Part shown: positions 15,021 through 62,871 of the stretch, one piece after another
How positions within the stretch are numbered: the stretch's first letter is position 1
Layout of the letters: every line of letters starts with the position of its first letter
NCBI GenBank assembly: GCA_017525245.1
Contig: JAFXTE010000008.1
Span: forward strand, 1 to 64,000
Source of the DNA: Bacteroidales bacterium
GTDB taxonomy: Bacteria; Bacteroidota; Bacteroidia; Bacteroidales; WCHB1-69
Direction: 5' to 3'
Length of the DNA stretch: 64,000 nt
Program-made: the position numbers and the translations under genes
The notes under the pieces: model-generated
Databases searched by the model: none
The model's input: the letters and a program-made list of their open reading frames with translations, nothing else
What the model was told of the DNA's origin: nothing

Positions 15021-17465
<2,445 letters not shown>

Positions 17466-48689: not shown

Positions 48690-48721
48690 TTCAGAATTCA
48701 GAATGCATAATGCATAATTAT

Positions 48722-50056
48722 ATGAAAAGGGACAATATCCTTATCGTTGATGACAACGCGGGCATCCGAACCACGTTGCAGATTCTGCTGGACGGGAAAT
48801 GCGCGGCCGTGGAGACTATTGCTTCCCCGAAAGTGCTCGTCAGCACGGTGCAGCGTTTCCGCCCCGATGTGATCCTGCTCGACATGAACTTCGAGTCCGA
48901 CATCAACACCGGCAACGAAGGATTGTACTGGCTCGCCGAGCTGAAGCGGCAATTCCCTGACATTGTGGTGATTCTGATGACTGCCTACGCTGACATCGCC
49001 CTTGCAGTGGAAGGCATGAAGCGCGGGGCCTTCGATTTCATCGTGAAACCCTGGGACAACGACAAGCTGATGGAAACTCTTGAGGCCGCCAGCCAACAAC
49101 GCAAAGGCAAGGTTCCTTCCCAGCAGTCCGACACCGCGATGCCCATGCTGTGGGGAGATTCCCCGAAAATGACCGATCTTCGCCGCATGACGGAAAAAAT
49201 CGCCCCGACAGAGGCCACCGTTCTCATCACCGGCGAGAACGGCACTGGAAAAGACATGTTAGCGAACGAAATACACCGACTATCCGCACGCGCTGGAAAA
49301 CCCATGGTGAGTGTCGATATCGGTTCCTTATCGGAGACCCTTTTCGAAAGCGAGCTATTCGGACATGTCAAAGGGGCTTTCACCGACGCCCGCACTGACC
49401 ATACGGGCAAATTTGAGCTGGCCAACGGCACCACCCTCTTCTTGGATGAAATCGGCAACATCCCGTTGAACCTGCAAGCCAAGCTGTTACGTGTCTTGCA
49501 GAACCGTTGTGTCACCAAAGTCGGCGACACCAAGTCCGTGCCCATCGACATCCGGCTCATCTGCGCCACGAACCGCGACCTGCCCGCCATGGTGCGCGAA
49601 GGCCGTTTCCGCGAAGATCTCTACTACCGCATCAACACCGTGACCCTGCAACTGCCGCCGCTACGTGAGCGCACTGACGAAATTGCCGCATTAGCCAACT
49701 CATTCACAATTCGTTACGCCAAGAAATACCGCCGCAATGTAACCGGCGTCTCCGATGAGGCGATTGCGCTGTTGAGTCACTGCCGCTGGCCCGGCAACGT
49801 ACGCGAATTGCAAAACTGCATTGAAAAGGCCGTCATCTTGGCGGACAACTCCATTCTTCAACCCGAAGACCTGCAAATTGATAAATCCGCACTAAACACC
49901 GGCATCTCGTCTGTTGCGGAAACATTAGAAGATGCCGAAGAACAGGTCATCCGCAACGCCGTGAAAAAGTACAACGGCAATCTCTCTTTGGTAGCCAAAG
50001 CATTGAACATCAGCCGTCCCACATTATACAATCGGTTGAAAAAATACGGAATATGA
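48722..50056 (+). CDS. Sigma-54-dependent response regulator (NtrC/AtoC-like)
   Basis: A 444-residue enhancer-binding protein. The receiver domain (about 1-120) has Asp10, Asp11 and the phosphorylated Asp54 in DVILLDMNFES, then FIVKPWDND. The AAA+ domain has GENGTGKDML (Walker A), ESELFGHVKGAFTDA, where the sigma-54-contacting motif reads GAFTDA rather than GAFTGA, and TTLFLDEIGN. The C-terminal Fis-type helix-turn-helix is LSLVAKALNISRPTLYNRLKKYGI. The kinase gene overlaps its end by four bases. I chose ATG 48722; an earlier ATG at 48710 lies in a GCATAAT repeat. It probably binds the TGTAA/TTACA arrays at 50913 and 53930 and activates the transporter genes. Confidence 0.9.
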   Translation: MKRDNILIVDDNAGIRTTLQILLDGKCAAVETIASPKVLVSTVQRFRPDVILLDMNFESDINTGNEGLYWLAELKRQFPDIVVILMTAYADIALAVEGMKRGAFDFIVKPWDNDKLMETLEAASQQRKGKVPSQQSDTAMPMLWGDSPKMTDLRRMTEKIAPTEATVLITGENGTGKDMLANEIHRLSARAGKPMVSVDIGSLSETLFESELFGHVKGAFTDARTDHTGKFELANGTTLFLDEIGNIPLNLQAKLLRVLQNRCVTKVGDTKSVPIDIRLICATNRDLPAMVREGRFREDLYYRINTVTLQLPPLRERTDEIAALANSFTIRYAKKYRRNVTGVSDEAIALLSHCRWPGNVRELQNCIEKAVILADNSILQPEDLQIDKSALNTGISSVAETLEDAEEQVIRNAVKKYNGNLSLVAKALNISRPTLYNRLKKYGI

Positions 50057-50910
50057 GTACATGGCTATGGATAGTCCTCTTGTTGGTAACCTCACTGGTC
50101 GCCATTATCGCGACCGCATGGTGGGTCAACAAGCGCAACCGTGAAAAGGTGGCCTACATGATGGACGCCCTGGAAGACGGCGAGTCCAACTTCCGTTTCC
50201 GGAACGACTCCGCCATGAACCGCGAACTCAACCGGATTCGTGACATCATGGAACGCCAAAGCCGTAAGAACGAGGAAGTTTCATGGAAAAAGCTGTTCCG
50301 GGTCATCACGCACGAAATCATGAACACCGTCACCCCGATTGCCGCCCTCAGCGATGCCCTCTCCAAAGACGATCAGCTGGACGTGAAAGCCGGCCTCACA
50401 ACGATTTCCTCCTCATCCAAAGAGTTGATCCGATTCGTGGAATCGTACCGCAACTTCACCAAAGCGGTACCGCCGGTCTTCAAAGCCGTGATGGTCGATA
50501 ATCTGGTGGAGAATGCCATCCGACTGAACAAATCCCGGACACAGGAAAAAGGGGTAACGCTGACTTATCAGGCCAAAACACCAGACCTATTGCTATACGT
50601 CGATGAAGGGCAAATTATGCATATCTTCAACAACTTGATAAAGAATGCGATAGAAGCAGGGGCCACGGCCATTACCATTTCCGCTTACATGGACAAAGAG
50701 GATCGGACCGTCATCAGTGTCAGCAACAACGGACAAGCAATTCCGTTGCACAAGACGGAGGAGATTTTCGTGCCGTTTTTCACCACAAAGCCGCAGGGAA
50801 CGGGAGTTGGACTGAGCTTGTCACGCCGCATCATGTCCGCCCATCACGGTACCCTCACACTCGTCCAAAGCGACGCCACCCAGACGATTTTCGCAATGGT
50901 GTTCGCTTGA
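50053..50910 (+). CDS. Short membrane histidine kinase, cognate of the sigma-54 regulator
   Basis: A 285-residue kinase. One N-terminal membrane helix (WIVLLLVTSLVAIIATAWW) is followed directly by a helical linker, the phospho-acceptor His87 in FRVITHEIMNTVTP, and a HATPase domain with NLIKNAIEAG, SNNGQAIPL, FVPFFTTKP and GTGVGLSLSRR. There is no periplasmic sensor domain and no PAS or HAMP. Signal sensing must therefore occur in the membrane, in the cytoplasm, or through a partner such as the transporter. It overlaps the regulator gene and stops 172 bases before the TolC gene. Confidence 0.87.
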   Translation: MSTWLWIVLLLVTSLVAIIATAWWVNKRNREKVAYMMDALEDGESNFRFRNDSAMNRELNRIRDIMERQSRKNEEVSWKKLFRVITHEIMNTVTPIAALSDALSKDDQLDVKAGLTTISSSSKELIRFVESYRNFTKAVPPVFKAVMVDNLVENAIRLNKSRTQEKGVTLTYQAKTPDLLLYVDEGQIMHIFNNLIKNAIEAGATAITISAYMDKEDRTVISVSNNGQAIPLHKTEEIFVPFFTTKPQGTGVGLSLSRRIMSAHHGTLTLVQSDATQTIFAMVFA

Positions 50911-50912
50911 TT

Positions 50913-50949
50913 TGTAAAATCCCCTTACACCCTGTAAGATTTTCTTACA
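50913..50949. promoter_or_regulatory. Enhancer array of TGTAA/TTACA half-sites (tolC promoter)
   Basis: Four half-sites lie at 50913 (TGTAA), 50925 (TTACA), 50933 (TGTAA) and 50945 (TTACA). They form the nested palindromes CTTACA-CCC-TGTAAG and TGTAAGATTTTCTTACA. The array centre is 73 bp before the -24 GG of the sigma-54 promoter at 51003, the same as at 53930. Confidence 0.75.
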
Positions 50950-51002
50950 CTTTCCTTTCGCCTTCTTTCGCTGAGTATCTAACAACCAGCACATTACGGT
51001 TT

Positions 51003-51018
51003 TGGCATTCTTTTGGCA
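51003..51018 (+). promoter_or_regulatory. Sigma-54 promoter for the tolC-hlyD operon
   Basis: TGGCATTCTTTTGGCA has GG at 51004-51005 and GC at 51016-51017, the spacing of the -24/-12 consensus TGGCAC-N5-TTGC. One mismatch occurs in the -12 TT. Transcription should start near 51029, just before the palindrome at 51035. Confidence 0.75.
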
Positions 51019-51034
51019 TGTTCTTTTCGGAATT

Positions 51035-51062
51035 GTAGAGACGTGCCATGGCGCGTCTCTAC
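51035..51062. repeat. 28-bp palindrome, family 1 copy 6
   Basis: Identical to the copy at 82, with a TGCCATGGCG core. It would form a hairpin at the very 5' end of the predicted sigma-54 transcript. Confidence 0.9.
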
Positions 51063-51082
51063 AACGGCAAAAACGAGAAAGT

Positions 51083-52411
51083 ATGTCAAGAAGTACGACC
51101 ATATCCCTATTGATGATGCTGTTGTTCGGAACGGCGTACGCGCAGGACACGGCGGTGATGACCCTGCGCGACTGTATCCGCTATGCCTTGTCGCATTCTG
51201 CGGAGATGCGCGTGCTGCAGGCCGACCTCGGCGACGCGCAGTTAGCCCGCCGCAACGCCATCCTCAACGCCTTCACCCCGGTGGTCAGCGGCGATGTTTA
51301 CGCTTACTCCAACTTCGGCCGTTCCATCGACCCAGAGACCAATACTTATAGTACCACCGCCTCCTTCCACAATGGTTACGGTGTCTCTGCCGGCATCACC
51401 CTTTTCAATGGATTCAGAGCCGTCAATAACATGAAAATCACGAAACTGGCGGAGGCGACGGGCGTGACGAGAATCCAGCAGAGCGAAGACCGGATCCGCC
51501 TCGCCACGATGGAGGCATACTGCAACGTACTCTATTACACGGAGTTACTGAAAACGCTACAAGCGCAGACGGAGACGGCTGAGACGGCCTTGCGGCTCGC
51601 GCAACGGCAGAAGGAGTTGGGACAGAAATCGCCGGCGGATGTGCTGCAAATGGAGGCAGACCTCTCCGACCGCAGGTACAGATTCATCGTCTGTGAAAAC
51701 CAACTTCAGAACGCCTATATCACGTTGAAAGACATTATGTTATATCCGACAGAACAGCCGTTCTCAGTCGCGGATGTGGAAACGGATACGGTGCTGTCGG
51801 ATGCGGTACGTGCAATGGAGGTGGATCGGGCGGCGGAGCGTCTGCCGGCCGTAATCATAGCCGAAAATGAGCGGCAGACCGCCCGCCTCGCCCTCAAAAC
51901 CGCGAAGTGGCAGCTGCTACCGTCACTGTCGCTGTATGGCGGATGGTCCTCGACCTACTTCACCTACCCGGGGCGCACGGACTACGTGCCCGTTCCCTAT
52001 TGGAAGCAACTCTCCGACAACGGCGGCGAGTACGTGCAGTTGTCGCTGAGCATCCCGATTTACGACCGATTGTCGCGGCAGACGGAAATCGCACGGCGAC
52101 GCAACGACTGCGATCGTGCGGAAGCCCGATACGCACAGGCCCGGCAGACCGTGGAGGCCGAAATCCACCGCGCTCTCGCCGACCGCGACGGGGCCGCCGC
52201 AGCCCTCCGTCAGGCCGAACAGCACGCCGCCCTGCAGCAGCAACTCTACACGCTGAGTGCCAGACAGTTCGAGCAAGGGCTCATCTCCGCCCTCGACTAC
52301 CGGACCGTCGCCGACAACCACCTGAACGCCACCGCCGAACTGCTCAACGCGAAGCTGCAGCTGTTTCTGAAGACGTGGGTGGTGAGATATTATTTTGGAG
52401 TTAGTAGTTAG
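51083..52411 (+). CDS. TolC-family outer-membrane efflux protein
   Basis: A 442-residue protein with a signal peptide (ISLLMMLLFGTAYAQ) and two OEP repeats: long helices such as TLRDCIRYALSHSAEMRVLQADL, then barrel strands SGDVYAYSNFGRSIDPETN and GVSAGITLFNGFRAVN in the first half, and WQLLPSLSLYGGWSSTY and YVQLSLSIPIYDRLSR in the second. It forms the outer-membrane exit duct of a tripartite pump. The next gene, a membrane-fusion protein, starts 12 bases later. ATG 51083 gives the signal peptide; upstream ATGs fall before or inside the palindrome. Confidence 0.87.
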   Translation: MSRSTTISLLMMLLFGTAYAQDTAVMTLRDCIRYALSHSAEMRVLQADLGDAQLARRNAILNAFTPVVSGDVYAYSNFGRSIDPETNTYSTTASFHNGYGVSAGITLFNGFRAVNNMKITKLAEATGVTRIQQSEDRIRLATMEAYCNVLYYTELLKTLQAQTETAETALRLAQRQKELGQKSPADVLQMEADLSDRRYRFIVCENQLQNAYITLKDIMLYPTEQPFSVADVETDTVLSDAVRAMEVDRAAERLPAVIIAENERQTARLALKTAKWQLLPSLSLYGGWSSTYFTYPGRTDYVPVPYWKQLSDNGGEYVQLSLSIPIYDRLSRQTEIARRRNDCDRAEARYAQARQTVEAEIHRALADRDGAAAALRQAEQHAALQQQLYTLSARQFEQGLISALDYRTVADNHLNATAELLNAKLQLFLKTWVVRYYFGVSS

Positions 52412-52423
52412 CAGTTAGTAGTT

Positions 52424-53686
52424 ATGGACAGACAGATAGAACCAGCAAAAGGAATCCGCAAACTCTTTACCCGCAAGGCACTGCCATATTGGGGCGGGGC
52501 GCTGCTACTCGTCTTCATCGGGTGGCTGGCACTGCGCGACGACGCCAGGAAATTGCGTGTGGGCGGAGAAGCAATCACCGTCAGCGAGGTGCGATGCGGC
52601 GAGTTCAACGACTACATCCGCATCAGCGGGCGCGTGGTACCGATGACCACTGTGCAGCTCAGCCCGTTGGAGGGCGGCGTGGTGCAGGCAATCGTCGCGG
52701 AGGAGGGCGCGCACGTCCGCGAGGGCGACGTCATCCTGGTCCTCAGCAACGAGAGTCTCGACATGCAGATTCTCAACGCTGAGGCCGACCTCGCCGAGAA
52801 GGAGAACATCCTCCGCAACACGATGATCCAGATGGAACAGCAGAAGCTGAGCCTCCAGCAGGAGAAACTGCAGCTGCAGATGGAGGTGCGCCGCAAGAAA
52901 CGCACTTACGAGTCGCAAAAGTCTCTCTATCAGGACAATCTCATCGCCAAGGAGCTGTTTTTGCAGGCCGAGGAGGATTACCAACTGGCCCAAGACCGCC
53001 TCAGGCTGGTGGAGAACCGCGCCAAGCAAGACAGCCTCTACCGGTCGGTGGAGATCCGGCAGATGCGCGAAAGCCTGGAGAACATGCGGCTTAACATGCA
53101 GATGATACGGCACAGGAAAGAGAATCTCACCATCAAAGCCCCGATTGACGGCGAGCTGGGCCTCGTCGATGTGGTGCTCGGACAGTCTGTCGCGATGGGC
53201 AGCAAGGTCGGACAGATCAACAATCAGGACAACTACAAGATCGAAGCCCTGATTGACGAGCACTACATCGACCGGGTGACAGCGGGGTTGGAGGCCGACT
53301 TCGAGCGACAGGGCGGCAAGTGCAACGTGCTGATACGCAAGGTCTATCCCGAAGTCCGAGACGGCAAGTTCAAGGCCGACTTTAAATTTGCGGACGGTCA
53401 GCCGGAAAATATCCGCAACGGTCAGACGTTCTATCTGAACCTGCAGCTCGGTCAGCCGGTGGAGGCCGTCCTCATCCCGCGCGGCGCCTTCTACCAGAAG
53501 ACCGGCGGCAAGTGGATATACGTGGTCTCCCCCGACGGCAAACGTGCCGTGAAGCGGGACATCCGCATCGGTCGCCAGAACCCGCAGTACTACGAGGTGT
53601 TGGAAGGTCTTGAACCGGGCGAGAAGGTGATTACGTCGTCGTATGATGGATACGGGGAGGCGGAAGTGTTGGAAATTAAGAATTAA
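52424..53686 (+). CDS. HlyD/MacA-type periplasmic adaptor
   Basis: A 420-residue membrane-fusion protein. An N-terminal membrane helix (YWGGALLLVFIGWLAL) precedes a biotinyl-lipoyl half motif (LSPLEGGVVQAIVAEEGAHVREGDVILVLS), a long coiled coil at about residues 105-215, the second lipoyl half (NLTIKAPIDGELGLVDVVLGQSVAMGSKVG) and a beta-barrel with ILIPRGAFYQKTGG and a C-terminal LEGLEPGEKVITSSYDGYGEAEVL. It links the TolC duct to the inner-membrane permeases. Its nearest partners here are the FtsX-type permeases starting at 54175. Confidence 0.85.
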   Translation: MDRQIEPAKGIRKLFTRKALPYWGGALLLVFIGWLALRDDARKLRVGGEAITVSEVRCGEFNDYIRISGRVVPMTTVQLSPLEGGVVQAIVAEEGAHVREGDVILVLSNESLDMQILNAEADLAEKENILRNTMIQMEQQKLSLQQEKLQLQMEVRRKKRTYESQKSLYQDNLIAKELFLQAEEDYQLAQDRLRLVENRAKQDSLYRSVEIRQMRESLENMRLNMQMIRHRKENLTIKAPIDGELGLVDVVLGQSVAMGSKVGQINNQDNYKIEALIDEHYIDRVTAGLEADFERQGGKCNVLIRKVYPEVRDGKFKADFKFADGQPENIRNGQTFYLNLQLGQPVEAVLIPRGAFYQKTGGKWIYVVSPDGKRAVKRDIRIGRQNPQYYEVLEGLEPGEKVITSSYDGYGEAEVLEIKN

Positions 53687-53765
53687 GAATTATGAATTAT
53701 GAATGATGGGGATAGTATATGCTTATAAACTGTTGGTTATGGACAACGCTTTGGTTTTCGTAAAT

Positions 53766-53832
53766 ATGAGATTGCGCCAACCTTGTGGTAGAATTCTGGC
53801 GTAATCTCTGTTTTTTTATGAGATTGCGCCAA
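53766..53832. repeat. Hairpin bounded by a 15-bp direct repeat
   Basis: ATGAGATTGCGCCAA occurs at 53766-53780 and again at 53818-53832. The first copy pairs with TGGCGTAATCTC at 53797-53808 (one mismatch in twelve), and TCTGTTTTTTT follows. The hairpin plus T-run could end the tolC-hlyD transcript. Confidence 0.55.
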
Positions 53833-53875
53833 GGAAGTTGTTTTGCAAAGGGGCGATGGCAAGTCCCAAAAATAG

Positions 53876-53883
53876 TATTTTTG
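53876..53883 (+). promoter_or_regulatory. -7 box (TATTTTTG), target unclear
   Basis: TATTTTTG followed by C, upstream of the enhancer array. It ends five bases before a 35-codon frame. It may be a second, housekeeping start for the permease operon. Confidence 0.4.
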
Positions 53884-53929
53884 CCATTATGAAAGTTTCA
53901 ATGATGACCTTTGAAAAAATGATGATACC

Positions 53930-53968
53930 TGTAAAGAAACCTTACACCTGCTGTAAGAAATCTTTACA
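53930..53968. promoter_or_regulatory. Enhancer array of TGTAA/TTACA half-sites (permease promoter)
   Basis: Half-sites lie at 53930 (TGTAA), 53942 (TTACA), 53952 (TGTAA) and 53964 (TTACA), giving CTTACA-CCTGC-TGTAAG in the middle. The array centre is 73 bp before the -24 GG at 54022, matching the array at 50913. Confidence 0.75.
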
Positions 53969-54020
53969 GCGGCCCTTTTGTTTGATGTTTAGATGATTGA
54001 CAACCAAAGGTTTATGTTTT

Positions 54021-54036
54021 TGGCACGGAAAATGAT
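54021..54036 (+). promoter_or_regulatory. Sigma-54 promoter for the permease operon
   Basis: TGGCACGGAAAATGAT carries a perfect -24 TGGCACG. The -12 part (ATGA) keeps the G of GC but not the C. Transcription should begin near 54047, about 128 bases before the first permease ATG. Confidence 0.65.
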
Positions 54037-54086
54037 GTATGAGAATGATGAAGAACGATGTATGGATGTTTATAAAAAAAATAAAT

Positions 54087-54174: not shown

Positions 54175-56523
54175 ATGAAAAGTTACCTTAAATTCCTCAG
54201 TCGCAACAAACTCTACACCGCCGTTGAGGCGGTGGGGCTGGTCGTGAGCCTCGCCTTCGTCATCCTAATCGGCAGTTACGTGACGCAACATCTGGCCGTC
54301 GTGTATCAGCAACCTGGCCATGACCGCATTTACGGCCTCGGAACCACCTCTAACTTGGGACTTTCAGTGTGGGATAAGTCCTCTATCGAAGCGCAGGTGC
54401 CTGGAATCGAGGCTATAGCTCGCTTTGGCTATGCCACCGACGAGATTTCTTACCATAAAAAAAACTATGAAGCGGAAGTTCGTCAGGTGGATGCGGAGTT
54501 CTTCAAGATCTTTCCCCAGTTTAGCCTTGTGGAGGGCACAGCCATCCCGTTCGACGGCACCCATAACGCCATTGTCAGCCGGAGTTTCGCGAACAGTCTG
54601 GAGAAAAAGGGCGACCTTATAGGACAACGTTTCGTCATAGAAGGAGAGGAGGAGGAATACATCATTTGCGGCATCATGGATGGTCCAGAAAACACCTTGG
54701 TTGCCCACATTGATGTACTGATTCCGGTGAATGAGAAATGGTGGGCTGGGCGCGAACCTTTCCACAGCGTGGACGGCACGAAGACCTTTATTCGCAGGAT
54801 GGAAAACACCAACGAAGAAGATTTCAAGGCACAAATACTTGAAGTATGCCGTCAAAACTATGGATCGTGGATAAATAAAGAACTTAAAATATTCAGTTTC
54901 AAGGAGATGTTCTTCCGCACTGAGAACGATTATGTATTACGCAGCGGCAACCTCAGCAGCATACGGATATTGTCAGCGGTGGTGTTCCTTCTCCTTCTGT
55001 CGGCGCTCGTCAACTACGTCAACCTCAACATGGCGTTGGTGGGTAAACGCGCCAAGGAGATGGCCACCCGCAGGCTTTTGGGTGCGCAGAAACTTTCCGT
55101 CATGGGCAAGTTTATCGTCGAATCCGTCTTGTTCACGGCGGTGTGTTTTGTTTTCGCCCTTTTGATGGCTCACGCCCTTGTTCCCATGATGAACTGGCTG
55201 TTGGCCAGCTCAACACCGGAAAGCGACATTCAATTGCAGTTGATGATGAAACCGACTTATATAGTCGCGTATCTGAGCGGAATCTTGCTGATGGGAACGC
55301 TCTCGGGATGGTTACCCGCACTGTATGCATCGTATTACGAACCCATTGATGTGGTGCGGGGTACATTTCGCCATCACAGCAAGATGTGGCTCAGCAAAAT
55401 CTTCATTATCTTCCAAAACGTCTTGTCTGTTATACTGATAGCCATCGCCATCGTAATGGAGGTTCAGATGTGGCACATGATCAGGCGACCTACCCATGCG
55501 AACACGAAAGACTTGTTTTACATCAGCGGCATCTGGTATTCTGTGCCTCATTTGGCGACTTTGGCCGACGAAATAGCGCAACTGCCTTGTGTCAAGGAGG
55601 TCGGCATTGGGAGAGGATTTCCCGGAAGCGCGGCTTATTCTGTCGGCATACGTTTGGAAGAGGAAGATTTCATCTTGAAGTTGCTCATCGGTGACAGTGC
55701 CTATTTTCGCATGTTAGGTTTCGAGGTGGTGAAGGATTTCGGCCATCCACTCGCCAACTCGCTTTGGTTAGGGGAACATGCATATACCAAAAGCGGGGCT
55801 TCTGACACTTCCGTTACCATGCCGAAAAAACTTGCAATCATGATGAATCAGGATGCCGACTACATCGGCGGAATGCTTAAAGATTTCCCGGGGGAGAGCG
55901 CGGCCTCTCCGGATGGCTTAAGCAACCAGAACGTGGGTGTACTGGTACAGGAAACCCGGAAGTTGGCATGGGCAAGCGACCTGTTTGTCAGAACCATCGG
56001 CGACCATTCGGAGGCCCGGAAGATCATCCTGAAACAGTGCCAGCTGTGGGCGGAAAAGGATGGGGAACCCTTTGCTGGGCAGGATGACTGCGGCTATGTG
56101 GATGACTTGAATCTTAAGTCGTTGGAGCCGGCCAAGCGCACCGTACGGTTGTTGGAGATTTTCATGGGGTTATCGGTGCTGCTGTCCCTGCTCGGTCTCG
56201 TCGCCATGAGCACCTACTATTGCGATGAAGGAAGCCACAGCATCGCCATCCGCAAGGTTTTCGGCAGCGACGTCAACCGCGAGTTGCGGCGCACGGTGAA
56301 GGGCTACATGATGCTCGTCGGAATCGCCGCCATCATCGGAGCTCCCCTTGCGGTTTGGCTTAGCGGCAAATACTTGGAACGTTTTGCCTACCGTATCGAG
56401 CATTACGGTTGGATCATTGTCGTGGCGCTTGTGGTCACCATGCTGCTGGCATTTCTTTCCGTCCTCTGGCAGACCCTCCGCGCCGCGAAGACGAATCCTG
56501 CGGAAGCTCTGAAGAAAGAGTAA
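54175..56523 (+). CDS. MacB/FtsX-type ABC permease 1
   Basis: A 782-residue permease made of two tandem halves. An N-terminal helix (LYTAVEAVGLVVSLAFVILIGSYV) precedes a MacB-type periplasmic domain (to about residue 250) and an FtsX domain with GKRAKEMATRRLLGAQK between membrane segments. The second half repeats helix (IFIIFQNVLSVILIAIAIVM), periplasmic domain and FtsX domain (SIAIRKVFGSDVNRELRRTV), ending AKTNPAEALKKE. It has no ATPase domain of its own. With HlyD, TolC and the ATPase at 56680 it would form a tripartite exporter. The substrate is unknown. Confidence 0.83.
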   Translation: MKSYLKFLSRNKLYTAVEAVGLVVSLAFVILIGSYVTQHLAVVYQQPGHDRIYGLGTTSNLGLSVWDKSSIEAQVPGIEAIARFGYATDEISYHKKNYEAEVRQVDAEFFKIFPQFSLVEGTAIPFDGTHNAIVSRSFANSLEKKGDLIGQRFVIEGEEEEYIICGIMDGPENTLVAHIDVLIPVNEKWWAGREPFHSVDGTKTFIRRMENTNEEDFKAQILEVCRQNYGSWINKELKIFSFKEMFFRTENDYVLRSGNLSSIRILSAVVFLLLLSALVNYVNLNMALVGKRAKEMATRRLLGAQKLSVMGKFIVESVLFTAVCFVFALLMAHALVPMMNWLLASSTPESDIQLQLMMKPTYIVAYLSGILLMGTLSGWLPALYASYYEPIDVVRGTFRHHSKMWLSKIFIIFQNVLSVILIAIAIVMEVQMWHMIRRPTHANTKDLFYISGIWYSVPHLATLADEIAQLPCVKEVGIGRGFPGSAAYSVGIRLEEEDFILKLLIGDSAYFRMLGFEVVKDFGHPLANSLWLGEHAYTKSGASDTSVTMPKKLAIMMNQDADYIGGMLKDFPGESAASPDGLSNQNVGVLVQETRKLAWASDLFVRTIGDHSEARKIILKQCQLWAEKDGEPFAGQDDCGYVDDLNLKSLEPAKRTVRLLEIFMGLSVLLSLLGLVAMSTYYCDEGSHSIAIRKVFGSDVNRELRRTVKGYMMLVGIAAIIGAPLAVWLSGKYLERFAYRIEHYGWIIVVALVVTMLLAFLSVLWQTLRAAKTNPAEALKKE

Positions 56524-56679: not shown

Positions 56680-57360
56680 ATGATACAAGTACAAAACCTC
56701 ACCAAAATCTTCCGCACGGAAGACATCGAAACCCTCGCATTAGACGGGGTGTCATTCACCATCAACGATGGCGAGTTCGTCGCCGTCATGGGGCCGTCGG
56801 GCTGCGGCAAATCCACGCTGCTCAACATCCTCGGCCTCCTGGATAATCCCACCGAGGGCACCTATGAGCTGCTCGGACAGCAGGTCGGCAGCCTGAAGGA
56901 GAAGGAGCGCACCAAGTTCCGCAAGGGCAACATCGGCTTCGTGTTCCAGAGCTTCAACCTCATCGACGAGCTGAACGTCTATGAAAACATAGAGCTGCCG
57001 CTGCGCTACCTGAACATCAGCGCCACGGAGCGCAAGGAGCGGGTCACGGCCATGATGAAGCGAATGGCCATCACCCACCGCGCCAAGCACTTCCCGCAGC
57101 AGCTCTCGGGCGGACAGCAGCAACGCGTCGCCATCGCCCGCGCCGTGGTCGCCAACCCCAAGCTCATCCTCGCCGACGAGCCTACTGGCAACCTCGATTC
57201 CAAGAACGGCAAGGAGGTGATGGACCTGCTCACCGAGCTGCACAAGGAGGGCACCACCATCGTGATGGTCACCCACTCGCAGCGCGACGCGGGCTATGCC
57301 GACCGCATCATCAACCTTTTCGACGGCAGGATCGTCGAGGATGTGCTGCCGGAACTGTGA
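56680..57360 (+). CDS. ABC transporter ATP-binding protein (MacB/LolD type)
   Basis: A 226-residue ATPase with Walker [10 protein letters not shown] near residue 40, Q-loop [21 protein letters not shown], signature LSGGQQQR, Walker [14 protein letters not shown] and H-loop [11 protein letters not shown]. The long Q-loop sequence and the EPTGNLDS motif place it with the MacB/LolD/FtsE group that serves FtsX-type permeases. It is the only ATPase of the cluster inside the window, sitting between permeases 1 and 2. An in-frame GTG at 56641 lies in the REP-like element; ATG 56680 gives the family's usual start ([11 protein letters not shown]). Confidence 0.92.
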
Positions 57361-57494: not shown

Positions 57495-59813
57495 ATGAAA
57501 TCGTACCTCAAATTCCTCAGCAGAAACAAACTCTACACCGCCGTGGAGGCGGTGGGACTGGTGGTGAGCCTCGCGTTCGTGATCATCATCGGCAGCTACG
57601 TATGGCAGCAGTACAGCATCACGCGCGAGAGTTCCGACCGGAAGGACATCTACACCTTCGGAACGCCAAACTGCACGGGGCTCACCTACGCCTTCCCCGA
57701 TGAGCTGCTCGCGCGGGTTCCCGAGGTGGAGGCAGCGGTGCGCTATTGCGGGTGCCAGACGACAGTCGCCCAGATGGGGGACGAGTATGTGCCGGTGAAT
57801 GCGGTCGCCGTGGAGAAGGACTTCTTCACGATGTTCCCGCACCTCGGCCGCTTCGTCGAAGGCGGTCCAGAATGCCTTGATGCGCCTTCGAATGTGATTG
57901 TTTGCGAGACCTTTGCACGACAGCACGACCTGAAATTTGGTCAGACAATCCGTATGGAAGGAGAAGAGTATCTCGTCGCGGGCATCATCAAGGATTTTGA
58001 AAACACCATTTTCGAAAACAGCGATCTGATTGTCAATGTACGCCATCCCGCCAACCGGTTTGCCATCGAATCGCCCTACGATGGTTTCGGTACGACTATC
58101 ACCTTTGCGAAAATCGCTAAAGGCACTGACCCACAGGTGGTTTACGACAAAGTGAAAAAAGTCTGCAAGGAGATTTATCCTCTCCATTACGGTCATGGAT
58201 CCTTCTTCGAAGAGTTGGAAATGACCCGATTCGACCAGCTGTTCTTCAAAGAGGATATTAACAGCTTTTTCAATCAAGGAGACCTTAAAACGCTGAAACT
58301 GTTGGCACTCGTCGGGCTGTTGTTGTTGCTTTCTGCGGTGTTAAACTACATCAACCTCTCGTTCGCGCTCACGGGGAAACGCGCCAAGGAGATGGCCACT
58401 CGTCGCCTGCTCGGAGCACAGAAAGGGGAGATTGTCTGGAAATATGTCTCTGAATCATTGGTGTTTACGACGGTTTGCTTCAGTTTCGGACTGTTGTTGG
58501 CCTACCTGTTGGCACCGTCGGTCAATGCCTTGCTTAACAATCCCGATGTGCCCATTCGGGTACGGATGTCGTTTACGTATATTTTGGCCTATCTTGCTGG
58601 TATCTTGGTGGTTGGTGTACTCAATGGCATCATTCCGGCCTTGTTTGCCAGCCGCGTGCAGCCCATCGATGTGGTGAAGGGCACTTTCCGCCGCAACACG
58701 AAAATGGTGTTCAACAAGGTGTTCATCGTTGTTCAAGGCATCTTTGCGGTTTTCCTCATCGCGATGGCCATCGTGATGGAGGCGCAGTACCGCACCTCGC
58801 TCCACCGTCCGAGGCACTGCAACACACAAGACAAATACTATCTGTTCGTGCCCACTCAAAAACCTCAACCACAGTTGTTTGAGAAACTTGAGAAACTGCC
58901 CTGCGTGAAGCGGATTGGCCGAAGTGCAGGTGCCCCTGGTTATCTTTTTGGGATACAGTATAATTGGACAGAGGACCGGAACATCACGTATTGGCATTTG
59001 CAAATGGATACGGTTGCCTTTCAGATGCTTGATTTTGAGGTGCTTAAAGATTACAAAGCCCCAATTTACAATTCAATCTGGTTTGGTGAGCGGGCTTTTG
59101 CCGCTACAGGTTTCAGCGAAGAGGACCACGTCATCAGTAATCCTATTACTCCGGGAAAGAAGGAATGCGAGCAGGTGGCGGGTGTGATTCGTGATATTCC
59201 CGTTAACAACAACAATATGGGCGAAGAGGCCAATGTCATCATCAGCGTTTTGAGGGAGGAAGATGTTCCGGTGGCTGGTTTCCTGATGGAGATTGCAGGC
59301 GACCATTCGGAAGCCGCGAAAGCCATCACCAAGGTGGTTGATGACTGGTGTGGCGAACAGCAGATGTTTTATTATGCCAACGGTTTTATTGACGATTTCT
59401 ACCGTGATGCGTTGAAACCCGCCAAGAACAACATGCGCTTGTTGGAGATTTTCATGCTGTTGGCCGTGCTGATTTCGCTACTCGGGCTTCTGGCCATGAG
59501 CACCTACTATGCGGGCGAGAATGCCAAAGGCATCGCCGTGCGTAAGGTGTTCGGCGGCACCGTCAAGAGCGAGACCCGGCGCACCGTGCGGGAGTACATG
59601 CTGCTGGTCGCGGTGGCCTGCGTCATCGGTGTGCCGATAGCGGTCTGGGCGGCGCAGCGTTACTTGGAGGACTTCATCGTCAGGCTGGAGCACTACGGCT
59701 GGATCTTCTTCGTCGCCGTGGTCATCTCCCTTGCGATGGCCTTCCTCTCGGTGCTTTGGCAGACCCTCCGCGCCGCGAAGACGAACCCTGCGGTGGTGCT
59801 AAAAAAGGAATAA
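57495..59813 (+). CDS. MacB/FtsX-type ABC permease 2
   Basis: A 772-residue two-half permease of the same plan as the gene at 54175: N-terminal helix, MacB-type periplasmic domain, FtsX domain with GKRAKEMATRRLLGAQKGEIVW, then a second helix (VFIVVQGIFAVFLIAMAIVM), domain and FtsX unit with KGIAVRKVFGGTVKSETRRTV, ending AKTNPAVVLKKE. Its first ~120 bases are almost identical to the start of the permease at 63028, while the periplasmic domains differ strongly. The variable periplasmic parts suggest different substrates or partners. Probably cotranscribed with the ATPase. Confidence 0.83.
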   Translation: MKSYLKFLSRNKLYTAVEAVGLVVSLAFVIIIGSYVWQQYSITRESSDRKDIYTFGTPNCTGLTYAFPDELLARVPEVEAAVRYCGCQTTVAQMGDEYVPVNAVAVEKDFFTMFPHLGRFVEGGPECLDAPSNVIVCETFARQHDLKFGQTIRMEGEEYLVAGIIKDFENTIFENSDLIVNVRHPANRFAIESPYDGFGTTITFAKIAKGTDPQVVYDKVKKVCKEIYPLHYGHGSFFEELEMTRFDQLFFKEDINSFFNQGDLKTLKLLALVGLLLLLSAVLNYINLSFALTGKRAKEMATRRLLGAQKGEIVWKYVSESLVFTTVCFSFGLLLAYLLAPSVNALLNNPDVPIRVRMSFTYILAYLAGILVVGVLNGIIPALFASRVQPIDVVKGTFRRNTKMVFNKVFIVVQGIFAVFLIAMAIVMEAQYRTSLHRPRHCNTQDKYYLFVPTQKPQPQLFEKLEKLPCVKRIGRSAGAPGYLFGIQYNWTEDRNITYWHLQMDTVAFQMLDFEVLKDYKAPIYNSIWFGERAFAATGFSEEDHVISNPITPGKKECEQVAGVIRDIPVNNNNMGEEANVIISVLREEDVPVAGFLMEIAGDHSEAAKAITKVVDDWCGEQQMFYYANGFIDDFYRDALKPAKNNMRLLEIFMLLAVLISLLGLLAMSTYYAGENAKGIAVRKVFGGTVKSETRRTVREYMLLVAVACVIGVPIAVWAAQRYLEDFIVRLEHYGWIFFVAVVISLAMAFLSVLWQTLRAAKTNPAVVLKKE

Positions 59814-59853: not shown

Positions 59854-62196
59854 ATGTATCGAAAAAGTAATCTCCTAATCCAGATACTCTCCCTCGGGGT
59901 GGGTCTTGCAATCGGCATCGTGCTGATTGCCAAAGTGTGCTTCGAGTTGTCGTACGACAGTTTCTATAAAGACGTGGACCGTATATATTGTATCCGTTCT
60001 GGTTACGAAGTACAGGGCGAATCCAGAGATTTCCCTCAGGTGAGTGGTGCGGTAGCATTTGGCTTCAAGGCAGAGGTGCCGGGAGTGGAAGAAGCCACTC
60101 GAATGACTTTCTATTTCAATAGTGACCGTTATTTGGACGAGGATGGCAATGTCATCACCGGAAATCTCCGTTTAGCCGATTCATGCTTCTTCCGCGTTTT
60201 TGACCGTCCCATTCTGGCTGGCAATCCGGAGAAAGTGCTGTCAGAGCCGCTATGTTTGATGGTGTCGGAGTCGTTTGCCAAAAAAATGGGTGGCGTGGAG
60301 GAATGTATTGGCAAAATCATCTACAACGAGGATGTCCCTTTGTTGAAAATGACTATTGAGGGCGTATTCAAGGATTTCCCTAAAAATGGTTCTATAGACG
60401 CCGACATTTTGCTGTCGATGGAGAGTTATTCAAAAAGCAGCACGGAGAACTGGGTCGGTAACGACCGCTATGTGGGATTTGTGAAATTGCAACAAGGTGT
60501 TGATCCGCAATCGCTTAACGATGCCATCCGTAGGATGCAGGAGGCTCATCAGCCTTTGCAGGAGTTTGAGAAGAACGGCATGAAGCTGTGGTATTATCTT
60601 GCACCATTTGGTAAAACCCACCTCAAGGAGTCTTCGGTGCATTCAATGGTAATACTGCTTTCCGTTATTGCAACAATGCTGATTGTCATCAGCTTACTCA
60701 ACTATATCCTGATCACAATTTCGTCTATGGTACATCGAGCCAAAGAAATTGGGGTACGAAAGTGCTATGGTGCGAACGCTTTCAGTATTTATGGATTATT
60801 GGCTCGGGAGTCGATAATACATCTATTATTGGCACTCGTTTTGGCAGCTGCCATTATTTTTGCCACAAAAGGATTGATACAGAACTTGTTGGGTGTGCCA
60901 TTTGGGACATTACTTGTTCCCCAAAGCATTTGGACTATTGTGGCTGTGCTGTTGCTTGTGCTGTTCGTTTCCGTTTTCGTTCCTGCGCGGCTTTACATGC
61001 GCATTCCCGTTTCGGTGGCCTTCCGCAATTATACGGAAAACTCGCGGCGATGGAAAATAGGACTGCTTGGCGTTCAGGTGTTTATCAATGTATTTGTCGT
61101 TTCGATGCTGATGGTCATCGCTTCGCAATATCATAAAATGATGAACGACGACCCGGGCTACAATTATGAGAATGTGTTGTTTGTGGACATGTACGACGGA
61201 AATCAAGAGGCTCAACAACGTGTGGTGAACGTTCTTGGCCAACTTTCTGAAGTGACACACATTGCAGCAAGCTATGGTCTTCCTTACATTTGGTCGAATG
61301 GCGACAACATATATCTTCCCGGCGACGATCGTGAATTGTTCAACGTGGCCGACCAGTACGAGGCCACAGCGCAATTCTATGCTCTTTTCGGAATGGAGTT
61401 TGTTGACGGTCGCGCACCGGCCGATTCCAATGAAGTGGTGGTGAGCGAGAGTTTCGTGAAACGGATGAATGACTTCACGGACTGGAGCGACGGTGCTGTG
61501 GGAAAACAGATTATGATTACTGGACACGAAAACTCTTTGACAAATCTTAAATCGTTCACTATTACGGGTGTTTACCGCGACTATCGCTTGGGTAGCCTCT
61601 TGGATATGGATACCCGACCGAGCGTGCGTTTCTACGGCAGTTTGGAGGACGGAGAGTCTTATATGCCGCATCTGGTTTTCAAAGTGAATAAAATGGATGA
61701 AACCACGATTGGGAAGCTGAAGGAAGCCATTTCTAAGGCCCTTGATGGAAAAGATGTACAGTTGAAAGTATATGCGGACGAAATGCATTCAGCATACGAA
61801 GATAGTCGCAAGATGCGCAACACCGTTTTCATCGGTTCCATTTTTGCATTGATGATTGCCATGTTGGGTCTCATCGGTTTCATACGCGATGAGTCGAGTC
61901 GTCGGAGCAAAGAAATGGCCATCCGCAAAATTAACGGTGCTACAGAGAGAGATGTGCTAAGCATTTTTGCTTGGGGTGTGTTGAAGTTATCTCTTATTAT
62001 GTCGATTTTTGCGTGTGTTTTCGCCTATTTCGTTGCCGACAAATGGCTTGAACAGTTCGCCGAGCGCATCGGCCTCTCGCCGTTGTATTTCATTTTTGGC
62101 GCAACGGTGGTTCTTCTCATCGTAGCAATCGTAGTCGTTATGAGTAGTATCAGAATTGCGAGGACTAACCCTGCTGAGGCGTTGAAGAAGGAGTAG
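59854..62196 (+). CDS. MacB/FtsX-type ABC permease 3, divergent
   Basis: A 780-residue permease with two FtsX domains (HRAKEIGVRKCYGANAFSIYG near residue 295 and RSKEMAIRKINGATERDVLSIF near residue 690), ending ARTNPAEALKKE. Unlike its neighbours it lacks the conserved LKFLSRNKLYTAVEAVGL start; its first helix is LLIQILSLGVGLAIGIVLIA and is followed by the FYKDVDRIYCIRS periplasmic domain. It belongs to another subgroup of the same family and is probably read from the same operon (40-base gap). It lies just before a two-gene cassette on the opposite strand. Confidence 0.83.
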   Translation: MYRKSNLLIQILSLGVGLAIGIVLIAKVCFELSYDSFYKDVDRIYCIRSGYEVQGESRDFPQVSGAVAFGFKAEVPGVEEATRMTFYFNSDRYLDEDGNVITGNLRLADSCFFRVFDRPILAGNPEKVLSEPLCLMVSESFAKKMGGVEECIGKIIYNEDVPLLKMTIEGVFKDFPKNGSIDADILLSMESYSKSSTENWVGNDRYVGFVKLQQGVDPQSLNDAIRRMQEAHQPLQEFEKNGMKLWYYLAPFGKTHLKESSVHSMVILLSVIATMLIVISLLNYILITISSMVHRAKEIGVRKCYGANAFSIYGLLARESIIHLLLALVLAAAIIFATKGLIQNLLGVPFGTLLVPQSIWTIVAVLLLVLFVSVFVPARLYMRIPVSVAFRNYTENSRRWKIGLLGVQVFINVFVVSMLMVIASQYHKMMNDDPGYNYENVLFVDMYDGNQEAQQRVVNVLGQLSEVTHIAASYGLPYIWSNGDNIYLPGDDRELFNVADQYEATAQFYALFGMEFVDGRAPADSNEVVVSESFVKRMNDFTDWSDGAVGKQIMITGHENSLTNLKSFTITGVYRDYRLGSLLDMDTRPSVRFYGSLEDGESYMPHLVFKVNKMDETTIGKLKEAISKALDGKDVQLKVYADEMHSAYEDSRKMRNTVFIGSIFALMIAMLGLIGFIRDESSRRSKEMAIRKINGATERDVLSIFAWGVLKLSLIMSIFACVFAYFVADKWLEQFAERIGLSPLYFIFGATVVLLIVAIVVVMSSIRIARTNPAEALKKE

Positions 62197-62209: not shown

Positions 62210-62533
62210 TCAATTGATATGTGCAAAATGGTCCAAATAACGGTTGAGCGCGGCAAGGGTGTCCAAATCCCCATCAAGGAAAGCCCCGCAGTAAAGTTCC
62301 CGGAATCGGCAGAGCTCTTTCAGGAGGGCTTTGCGGTTGGGTTGCCCATGCCTACCGTATGCGATGGTCAAGTCGATGAGCTCCTGCATCCGCTCAAAAG
62401 CCTTTTCGGCGTTGTCGCGACGGCCCTTGGCGAGCCATTTCGTGGCACGATAAGTTTCGCTCCCAATATTGGCCATCTGTTTTGCAAAGGGCATCTCGGC
62501 CCATGCTCCGTTACTGAGTGTCACGTGCTGCAT
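62210..62533 (-). CDS. Uncharacterised small helical protein
   Basis: A 107-residue, mostly helical protein (FAKQMANIGSETYRATKWLA, AEKAFERMQELIDLTIAYG, LLKELCRFRELYCGAF, DTLAALNRYLDHFAHIN). Family not recognised with certainty. Its ATG shares one base with the stop of the upstream gene (TAATG), so the two are one operon. It ends 13 bases from the stop of permease 3, convergent with it. An Arg-x6-His pair occurs at the C-terminus; HEPN relatedness is only a guess. Possible two-component cassette (see the neighbour). Confidence 0.5.
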   Translation of the reverse strand: MQHVTLSNGAWAEMPFAKQMANIGSETYRATKWLAKGRRDNAEKAFERMQELIDLTIAYGRHGQPNRKALLKELCRFRELYCGAFLDGDLDTLAALNRYLDHFAHIN

Positions 62534-62871
62534 TATTCAACGAATTTTGAAACGATGGATTTTATTTGTTCCCTGACTTCTGGATTCTCAACATCACGGC
62601 TGCGGTTGCCTTGCCAAGAACGGATATTGATTAAGGAGTCGAATTCGATGAAGTCTTCCCCTGTTTCTTCTGGATACAGGTTGAAACCCCAAAGATTTTC
62701 CTGCTCCGAACCGTTTTCGAGTAACATCGACTCCAAGTCGGCATGGAGCTCTGCGTCCACAGCAAGAAGACCTTTTCTCACATCGGCCACACACTTAATC
62801 ATATCAATGAAAGTATTGGATGCCAATTCTTTAAGTTGTTCTCTTGATATTTTTTCAGTAAGTACCTGCAT
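62533..62871 (-). CDS. Small acidic protein, DUF5674-like
   Basis: A 112-residue acidic protein. The segment HADLESMLLENGSEQENLWGFNLYPEETGEDFIEFDSLINIRSWQGNRSRDV, near residues 43-95, resembles DUF5674 as I recall it, with the 'L-LENGS-QE-LWG-N-YP' and 'INIR-QGNRS' blocks. Function unknown. It heads a two-gene operon on the minus strand with its own -7 box at 62887. The cassette interrupts the plus-strand permease array. Confidence 0.5.
   Translation of the reverse strand: MQVLTEKISREQLKELASNTFIDMIKCVADVRKGLLAVDAELHADLESMLLENGSEQENLWGFNLYPEETGEDFIEFDSLINIRSWQGNRSRDVENPEVREQIKSIVSKFVE

Follow-up and report, generated by a model that had tools for sequence, protein, structure and literature searches.

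Paired TGTAA dyads and sigma-54-like promoters point to an NtrC-class regulon of exporter genes in gut Bacteroidales

The enhancer of the enteric NtrB/NtrC system reads TGCACC(A/T)4TGGTGCA (PMC4987338, Table 1), and the passages of that article on NtrC-type enhancers describe dyads in tandem that seat at least two dimers, usually 80–150 bp upstream. The same passages give TGTC-N10-GACA as the site of GlrR/QseF (Table 1), which targets the small RNA genes glmY and glmZ, and zraP and zraSR as the targets of ZraR. Promoters of the -24/-12 type have been mapped in Flavobacterium psychrophilum, according to the part of PMC9723704 that bears on them. Here we describe a locus in the first 64,000 nucleotides of contig JAFXTE010000008.1 (the window) of a Bacteroidales bacterium, known from a draft genome that totals 3,675,580 bases over 111 contigs. 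In this locus a histidine kinase and the adjacent NtrC-class response regulator very probably run a local sigma-54 regulon of exporter genes through paired dyads.

Gene order from 48710 is response regulator, kinase, TolC-type channel, HlyD-type adaptor and then, from 54175 on, permeases and an ATPase (Table 1). As far as the passages cited above describe the known systems, the locus shares with NtrB/NtrC the 17-bp dyads upstream of a -24/-12 promoter and a presumably phosphorylated AAA+ regulator with a C-terminal helix-turn-helix (HTH), and differs from it in the operator sequence, the exporter targets, the near-fixed distance between array and promoter (72.5–77 bp) and the location of the targets at one locus. 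The operator of the Bacteroidaceae described below, TGTC-N9-GACA, is nearly identical in sequence to the GlrR/QseF site, but it is one base shorter and has exporter targets, and the clade of the window uses TGTAA instead. Two-component sigma-54 control of envelope functions would be common to the present system and ZraS/ZraR, but the regulator misses the NCBIfam equivalog cut-off for ZraR, as it does those for NtrC, AtoC and GlrR (25 of 82 matching families covered).

Two arrays of four TGTAA/TTACA half-sites lie in the window, one upstream of the TolC-HlyD genes (50913, 50925, 50933 and 50945) and the other upstream of the first MacB-type permease (53930, 53942, 53952 and 53964). Nowhere else in the 64 kb do four half-sites fall within 41 bp, and no such cluster arose in 60 simulations of the window with an order-1 Markov model. 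Each array is made up of two dyads in tandem, each 17 bp long and of the form TGTAA-N7-TTACA; the second starts 20 bp after the first in array 1 and 22 bp after it in array 2, the arrangement of a tandem-dyad enhancer. A sigma-54-like -24/-12 element follows each array, and at both promoters the first G of the -24 GG is 73.0 bp from the array centre and is followed 12 nt later by the G of the -12 part. Counting by the -24/-12 numbering of sigma-54 promoters, the array centre would lie about 98 bp before the expected start, an NtrC-type enhancer geometry. A preliminary description of this DNA had given the eight half-site positions, an element after each array, the 73-bp distance and an adjacent sigma-54 activator with a Fis-type end, and all of these agree with our re-reading.

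Table 1 Features of the locus (window coordinates).
Feature	Positions	Strand	Basis and remarks
Response regulator, NtrC (sigma-54 activator) class, presumed activator	48710..50056	+	Pfam; C-terminus and loop from translation
Histidine kinase, 285 aa, presumed partner kinase	50053..50910	+	Pfam; hydropathy script
Enhancer dyad 1a TGTAAAATCCCCTTACA	50913..50929	unstranded	Sequence pattern
Enhancer dyad 1b TGTAAGATTTTCTTACA	50933..50949	unstranded	Sequence pattern
IHF-like element AACCAGCACATTA, tentative	50984..50996	+	20 nt upstream of GG; 7/9 consensus positions
Sigma-54-like -24/-12 element TTTGGCATTCTTTTGGCAT	51001..51019	+	GG 51004-51005, -12 G at 51016
TolC-family outer membrane efflux protein (OEP), target gene 1	51083..52411	+	PF02321; NCBIfam
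HlyD/MacA-type periplasmic adaptor, presumably with target 1	52424..53686	+	PF13437; best NCBIfam equivalog DarC, below cut-off
Enhancer dyad 2a TGTAAAGAAACCTTACA	53930..53946	unstranded	Sequence pattern
Enhancer dyad 2b TGTAAGAAATCTTTACA	53952..53968	unstranded	Sequence pattern
IHF-like element AACCAAAGGTTTA, tentative	54002..54014	+	20 nt upstream of GG; 8/9 consensus positions
Sigma-54-like -24/-12 element TTTGGCACGGAAAATGATG	54019..54037	+	GG 54022-54023, -12 G at 54034
MacB/FtsX-type permease 1, target gene 2	54175..56523	+	Pfam
ABC ATPase	56686..57360	+	PF00005; best NCBIfam equivalog DarD, below cut-off
MacB/FtsX-type permease 2	57495..59813	+	Pfam
MacB/FtsX-type permease 3	59854..62196	+	Pfam

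The patterns used to collect arrays imposed the N7 spacing within dyads, and the spacing was therefore re-examined with both inner spacings left free (3–12). With this freedom 25 of 26 arrays (17 of 18 distinct sequences; 83 sources) still read N7/N7, with a gap of 3, 4 or 5 between the dyads; the remaining one reads N5/N6. The palindrome CTTACA-N3-5-TGTAAG, given in the preliminary description as the motif to search for, is the gap between the two dyads plus their flanks. We rejected it as the operator unit because of the N7/N7 result and because its N5 form also occurs, without mismatch, within a coding region that by eye looks like secD.

The exact dyad pair occurs at two sites in the 3.68-Mb genome, both in the window, and at none in the control. 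In 99 genomes of the family, our own included, the full module, defined as the exact pair plus TTGGCA, gave 35 matches in 19 genomes and no match in the control for any of the 99; one genome (G055) has four modules. At a threshold of 68% identity, which was chosen after the list had been seen, the regulator is present in 20 of the 99 genomes (in G095 as fragments), and the module is found in 19 of these 20 and in none of the other 79 (Fisher 1.9e-19, uncorrected for phylogeny). A genome with a 60% regulator fragment, below the threshold, has no module (G093). Of the 35 modules 30 were fetched, and all 30 have exporter genes within 900 bp downstream; the window protein matched best there is the OEP in 13, MacB in 15 and the ABC ATPase in two (the match at L102 is weak, with 24% identity). 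The distance from array centre to GG is 72.5–76 bp in these 30 modules, though the pattern allowed about 61–83 bp. Modules thus track the regulator and precede exporter genes, which supports the single regulon over TolC-HlyD and the multi-permease operon proposed in the preliminary description. Its extent has to be amended, since a third array with one mismatch lies outside the window, at contig position 68294 (G000:C79:68294-68450; L097, 7295 on), 4.3 kb beyond the window end, followed at 72.5 bp by the -24/-12 element TTTGGCACGGTTGCTGTAT. The third array precedes a short reading frame; inspected by eye, it begins like a permease and ends like one, with the middle missing. A genome of the same genus (G055, locus L102) has an exact array, and the promoter element that goes with it is that of the third site.

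Relatives with a regulator as distant as about 51% identity still have the arrays, the -24/-12 elements and the 72.5–77 bp spacing. The preliminary description had named non-conservation in orthologous clusters as one of the findings that would speak against it; conservation is what we find. In the first scan an array followed by a -24-like match was present in 38 of 82 sources, each with one at 72.5–77 bp, and a relaxed scan of the best 80 of 167 regulator loci, taken from named genomes, found the module in 40. We then defined arrays without reference to any promoter. This gave 80 distinct directed arrays from 113 partly overlapping sources, among which near-identical sequences remain; being palindromic, the arrays were read both ways, and some of the 80 must therefore be without a promoter. 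Downstream of them there are 59 -24-like matches, 38 of which lie at 72–78 bp. All 38 of these in-band elements have a further G exactly 12 nt downstream of the first one, compared to 2 of the 21 elsewhere, and after clustering at 75% spacer identity this further G is present in 31 of 31 modules. OEP genes beside regulator relatives gave a similar picture, with a sigma-54-like element in 45 of 46 testable upstream regions and an element plus at least three half-sites 48–100 nt before it in 39 of 46, compared to 256 and 15, respectively, of 2000 random windows; the half-site definitions of this test were fixed after inspecting sequences, and the random windows are mostly coding. The other 34 of the 80 loci were left out of the test, 33 for want of an OEP match and one as incomplete. 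The sequence itself shows the elements, their geometry and conservation, their co-occurrence with the regulator, and the exporter targets.

In Bacteroidaceae and relatives the dyads drift to TGTC-N9-GACA, reading TGTCTAA-N3-TTAGACA, for example TGTCTAATATTTAGACA, and the drifted arrays keep the same architecture and spacing. Where the recognition helix of the regulator is SRPTLY, all 87 of the half-sites that begin TGT have A at position 4; where it is [ST]RQTLY, 75 such half-sites divide into 51 with C, 19 with A and 5 with T at this position. A recognition-helix code that relates the P/Q residue to operator base 4 is suggestive only, because the counts are non-independent and the bases on the Q side vary. 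Perfect TGTC pairs, searched for across the order, gave five matches in 4 of 198 genomes and none in the control, a count that misses degenerate sites; three of the five precede OEP genes. The two others, L143 and L145, precede genes read by eye as lipoprotein-like and small secreted-protein-like. In the genome of the window, a paralogue 53% identical to the regulator (contig 55; L135 8544-8654) has a TGTC-type array 75.5 bp before the sigma-54-like element TTTGGCACGGAATTCGATA upstream of its own gene, and is probably autoregulated through this different operator.

The regulator has the receiver domain PF00072 (REC), the sigma-54 AAA+ domain PF00158 and the Fis-type HTH_8 domain PF02954, all above cut-offs, the domain set of the NtrC-class response regulators, and it is presumed to activate through sigma-54. 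Its recognition helix is ISRPTLYNRLKK. The loop that contacts sigma-54 reads GAFTDA compared to the class motif GAFTGA, with F and T kept and the second G replaced by D; 70 of 80 regulator relatives have G[AS]FT[DN]A here, and the other 10 were missed by the anchor used. The regulator is 99% identical to those of other Bacteroidales assemblies, one of them from goat omasum. A sigma-54 gene (PF04552) is present in the genome, as are six matches to sigma-54 activator domains, three of them strong: the window regulator, the 53%-identical paralogue, and one read by eye as having no receiver domain, which lies beside other genes. The kinase has a single predicted transmembrane helix near its N-terminus, and the hydropathy script leaves too little space for a periplasmic sensor domain. 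Many relatives of the kinase are longer, at about 434 aa; their N-terminal transmembrane helices, one or two and close together, likewise leave no space for such a domain. The gene set of a predicted MacB-type tripartite exporter is complete (PF02321, PF13437, PF12704 with PF02687, and PF00005). DarC and DarD, the equivalogs nearest to the adaptor and the ATPase, are parts of the darobactin exporter.

Between array and promoter a DNA bend is plausible. Scored against the IHF consensus WATCAA-N4-TTR, the 31 clustered modules have their highest mean at -20 (5.84, compared to an overall mean of 3.36 with a standard deviation of 0.77), and 15 of 31 reach at least 8/9 there, compared to a mean of 3.8 and a maximum of 10 in 300 shuffles. 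Against such an element, near-equal scores occur at -9 on the minus strand (5.58) and at -12 on the plus strand (5.55), and at the 7/9 threshold the count of 27 of 31 is equalled by the best shuffle. The genome has two genes of the HU/IHF family.

From these features we infer operator binding, phosphorylation, sigma-54 dependence, bending and the kind of inducing signal, and the mechanism would be textbook NtrC-type activation, ordinary in its steps and unusually constant in its geometry. The kinase would phosphorylate the adjacent response regulator, which in its active form would bind the two tandem dyads upstream of each target. With two dimers placed two helical turns apart it would assemble its AAA+ ring. 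The intervening DNA would bend, perhaps at the IHF/HU-like site that lies 20 nt ahead of the -24 element, and sigma-54 polymerase, poised 73 bp away on the -24/-12 element, would be remodeled by the ring. In this way the TolC-HlyD pair would be switched on jointly with the MacB-type permease operon and the third site, and channel, adaptor and inner-membrane pumps would therefore be made simultaneously.

Several observations weigh against a regulon of this kind. Both -12 elements in the window are imperfect, promoter 1 having TGGC for TTGC and promoter 2 ATGA, and among 30 distinct elements the base after the -12 G is often A or T and is C in 13, so that the fit to a sigma-54 promoter is imperfect. 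The lone dyad TGTAA-N7-TTACA is no rarer in the genome than in the reversed control (9 sites in each); a single dyad is thus uninformative and only the pair counts. Half of the regulator loci (the other 40 of 80) lack the module, though many of these do not contain the target promoters. In one genome (G090) the regulator is present without an exact module, and the co-occurrence partly reflects one linked gene cluster that is present or absent. Five of the 45 elements upstream of OEP genes (L046, L047, L049, L065 and L068) sit far from the gene, 230–426 nt from the end of the searched stretch, and in L068 this stretch has no half-sites. A Prevotella-like group (L034, L036, L039, L042) has rearranged TGTAAAG half-sites and no pairs of 17-bp dyads, while retaining the sigma-54-like element upstream of the OEP gene. 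Two of the five order-wide modules, both in G202, have no match to the window exporter downstream, and the regulon may therefore be wider than exporters in some genomes outside the family.

The dyads could be operators of a regulator other than the adjacent one, such as a repressor or another sigma-54 activator. Binding by the adjacent regulator is a prediction, and the genome has a paralogue 53% identical to it; but the module follows the regulator (19 of 20 genomes compared to 0 of 79), same-genus genomes with only the paralogue, at about 52% (G042, G059, G080, G083, G087), have no TGTAA module, and the promoter of the paralogue itself bears a TGTC-type array. A sigma-54 promoter moreover requires an activator, and the third candidate, which is found beside other genes, has no receiver domain. 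We consider this reading improbable. The -24/-12 matches might also be fortuitous, with a housekeeping promoter in use and the array an ordinary activator or repressor site. Housekeeping promoters of Bacteroidales carry a -7 TAnnTTTG, TTTG is common in the A+T-rich DNA here, positions -10 and -9 ahead of the -24 element often have T, and both -12 elements of the window are imperfect. The G at +12, in 38 of 38 in-band elements and only 2 of 21 out of band, is hard to reconcile with this, and so are the column counts of the 31 clustered modules, TTTGGCACG with TTTG 12 nt on, unlike the -7 spacing. A housekeeping promoter overlapping the -24 element was rejected on the +12 G, and a fortuitous match is highly improbable.

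A third possibility refines the local NtrC-class regulon and does not exclude it: the kinase may directly sense the state of a MacB-type permease, which would close a flux-feedback loop. The inducing signal could be an envelope-active compound or a permease state, and a kinase with no space for a periplasmic sensor would receive it in the membrane, in the cytoplasm or, as a guess, from a partner such as a permease. BceS is a kinase that senses the state of BceAB, and both the one-helix kinase of the window clade and many of the longer relatives suit such a role. The kinase–permease interaction is a conjecture, however, and there are many kinases that need no transporter to sense through the membrane or the cytoplasm; direct sensing is possible but doubtful. 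We regard as unlikely the fuller picture of a flux-feedback regulon in which a rigid enhancer-bend-promoter unit, its 72.5–77 bp conserved in many Bacteroidales, resets channel, adaptor and pump together, and in which divergence of operator (TGTAA/TGTCTAA) and helix (SRPTLY/[ST]RQTLY) insulates paralogues in the same genome.

The preliminary description had called the site undescribed. No earlier description of the operator or its activator was found among the matches listed in the open-licence literature, nor, for TTAGACA with Bacteroides and sigma, any paper title on a regulator site among the matches listed. The link between sigma-54 and FtsX-type permeases is not new, as a 2025 study reported for Bacteroidia an enrichment of predicted sigma-54 promoters at permeases of the FtsX type (COG0577) and called this the first such evidence, in the passages of PMC12316311 that bear on the point. 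That prediction agrees with the present system in sigma factor, target class and taxonomic class; it consists of promoter-matrix enrichment, and in those passages it comes with no geometry, channel genes, operator or activator. Two possible precedents were set aside: HaeRS of Porphyromonas, as the relevant passages of PMC3764172 do not mention NtrC, and RteB of CTnDOT, as those of PMC1976400 mention sigma only as sigma-70 and no inverted repeat.

Other features of the window include two neighboring short reading frames of 107 and 112 aa on the minus strand at 62210-62871, within the permease cluster and opposite to the permease genes. A dispersed palindromic repeat, GTAGAGACGTGCCATGGCGCGTCTCTAC, occurs at 82-109 and at 51035-51062, the latter copy in the expected leader of the TolC-type gene, and its arms alone occur also at 17145, 31502, 36525 and 42475. 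Genome-wide, with up to three mismatches, it has 28 forward and 33 reverse matches, many at the same place on both strands, compared to 0 in the control.

Worked examples of sigma-54 control in Bacteroidales, which are major gut bacteria, are few in the papers found. For one two-component system the locus provides an operator, a likely activator, target promoters and a geometry, and many gut Bacteroidales appear to switch on this exporter family via the paired site, probably bound by the neighboring activator. The variants of operator and recognition helix form a natural series for studying how Fis-type DNA-binding domains shift specificity and why the distance between enhancer and promoter varies so little.

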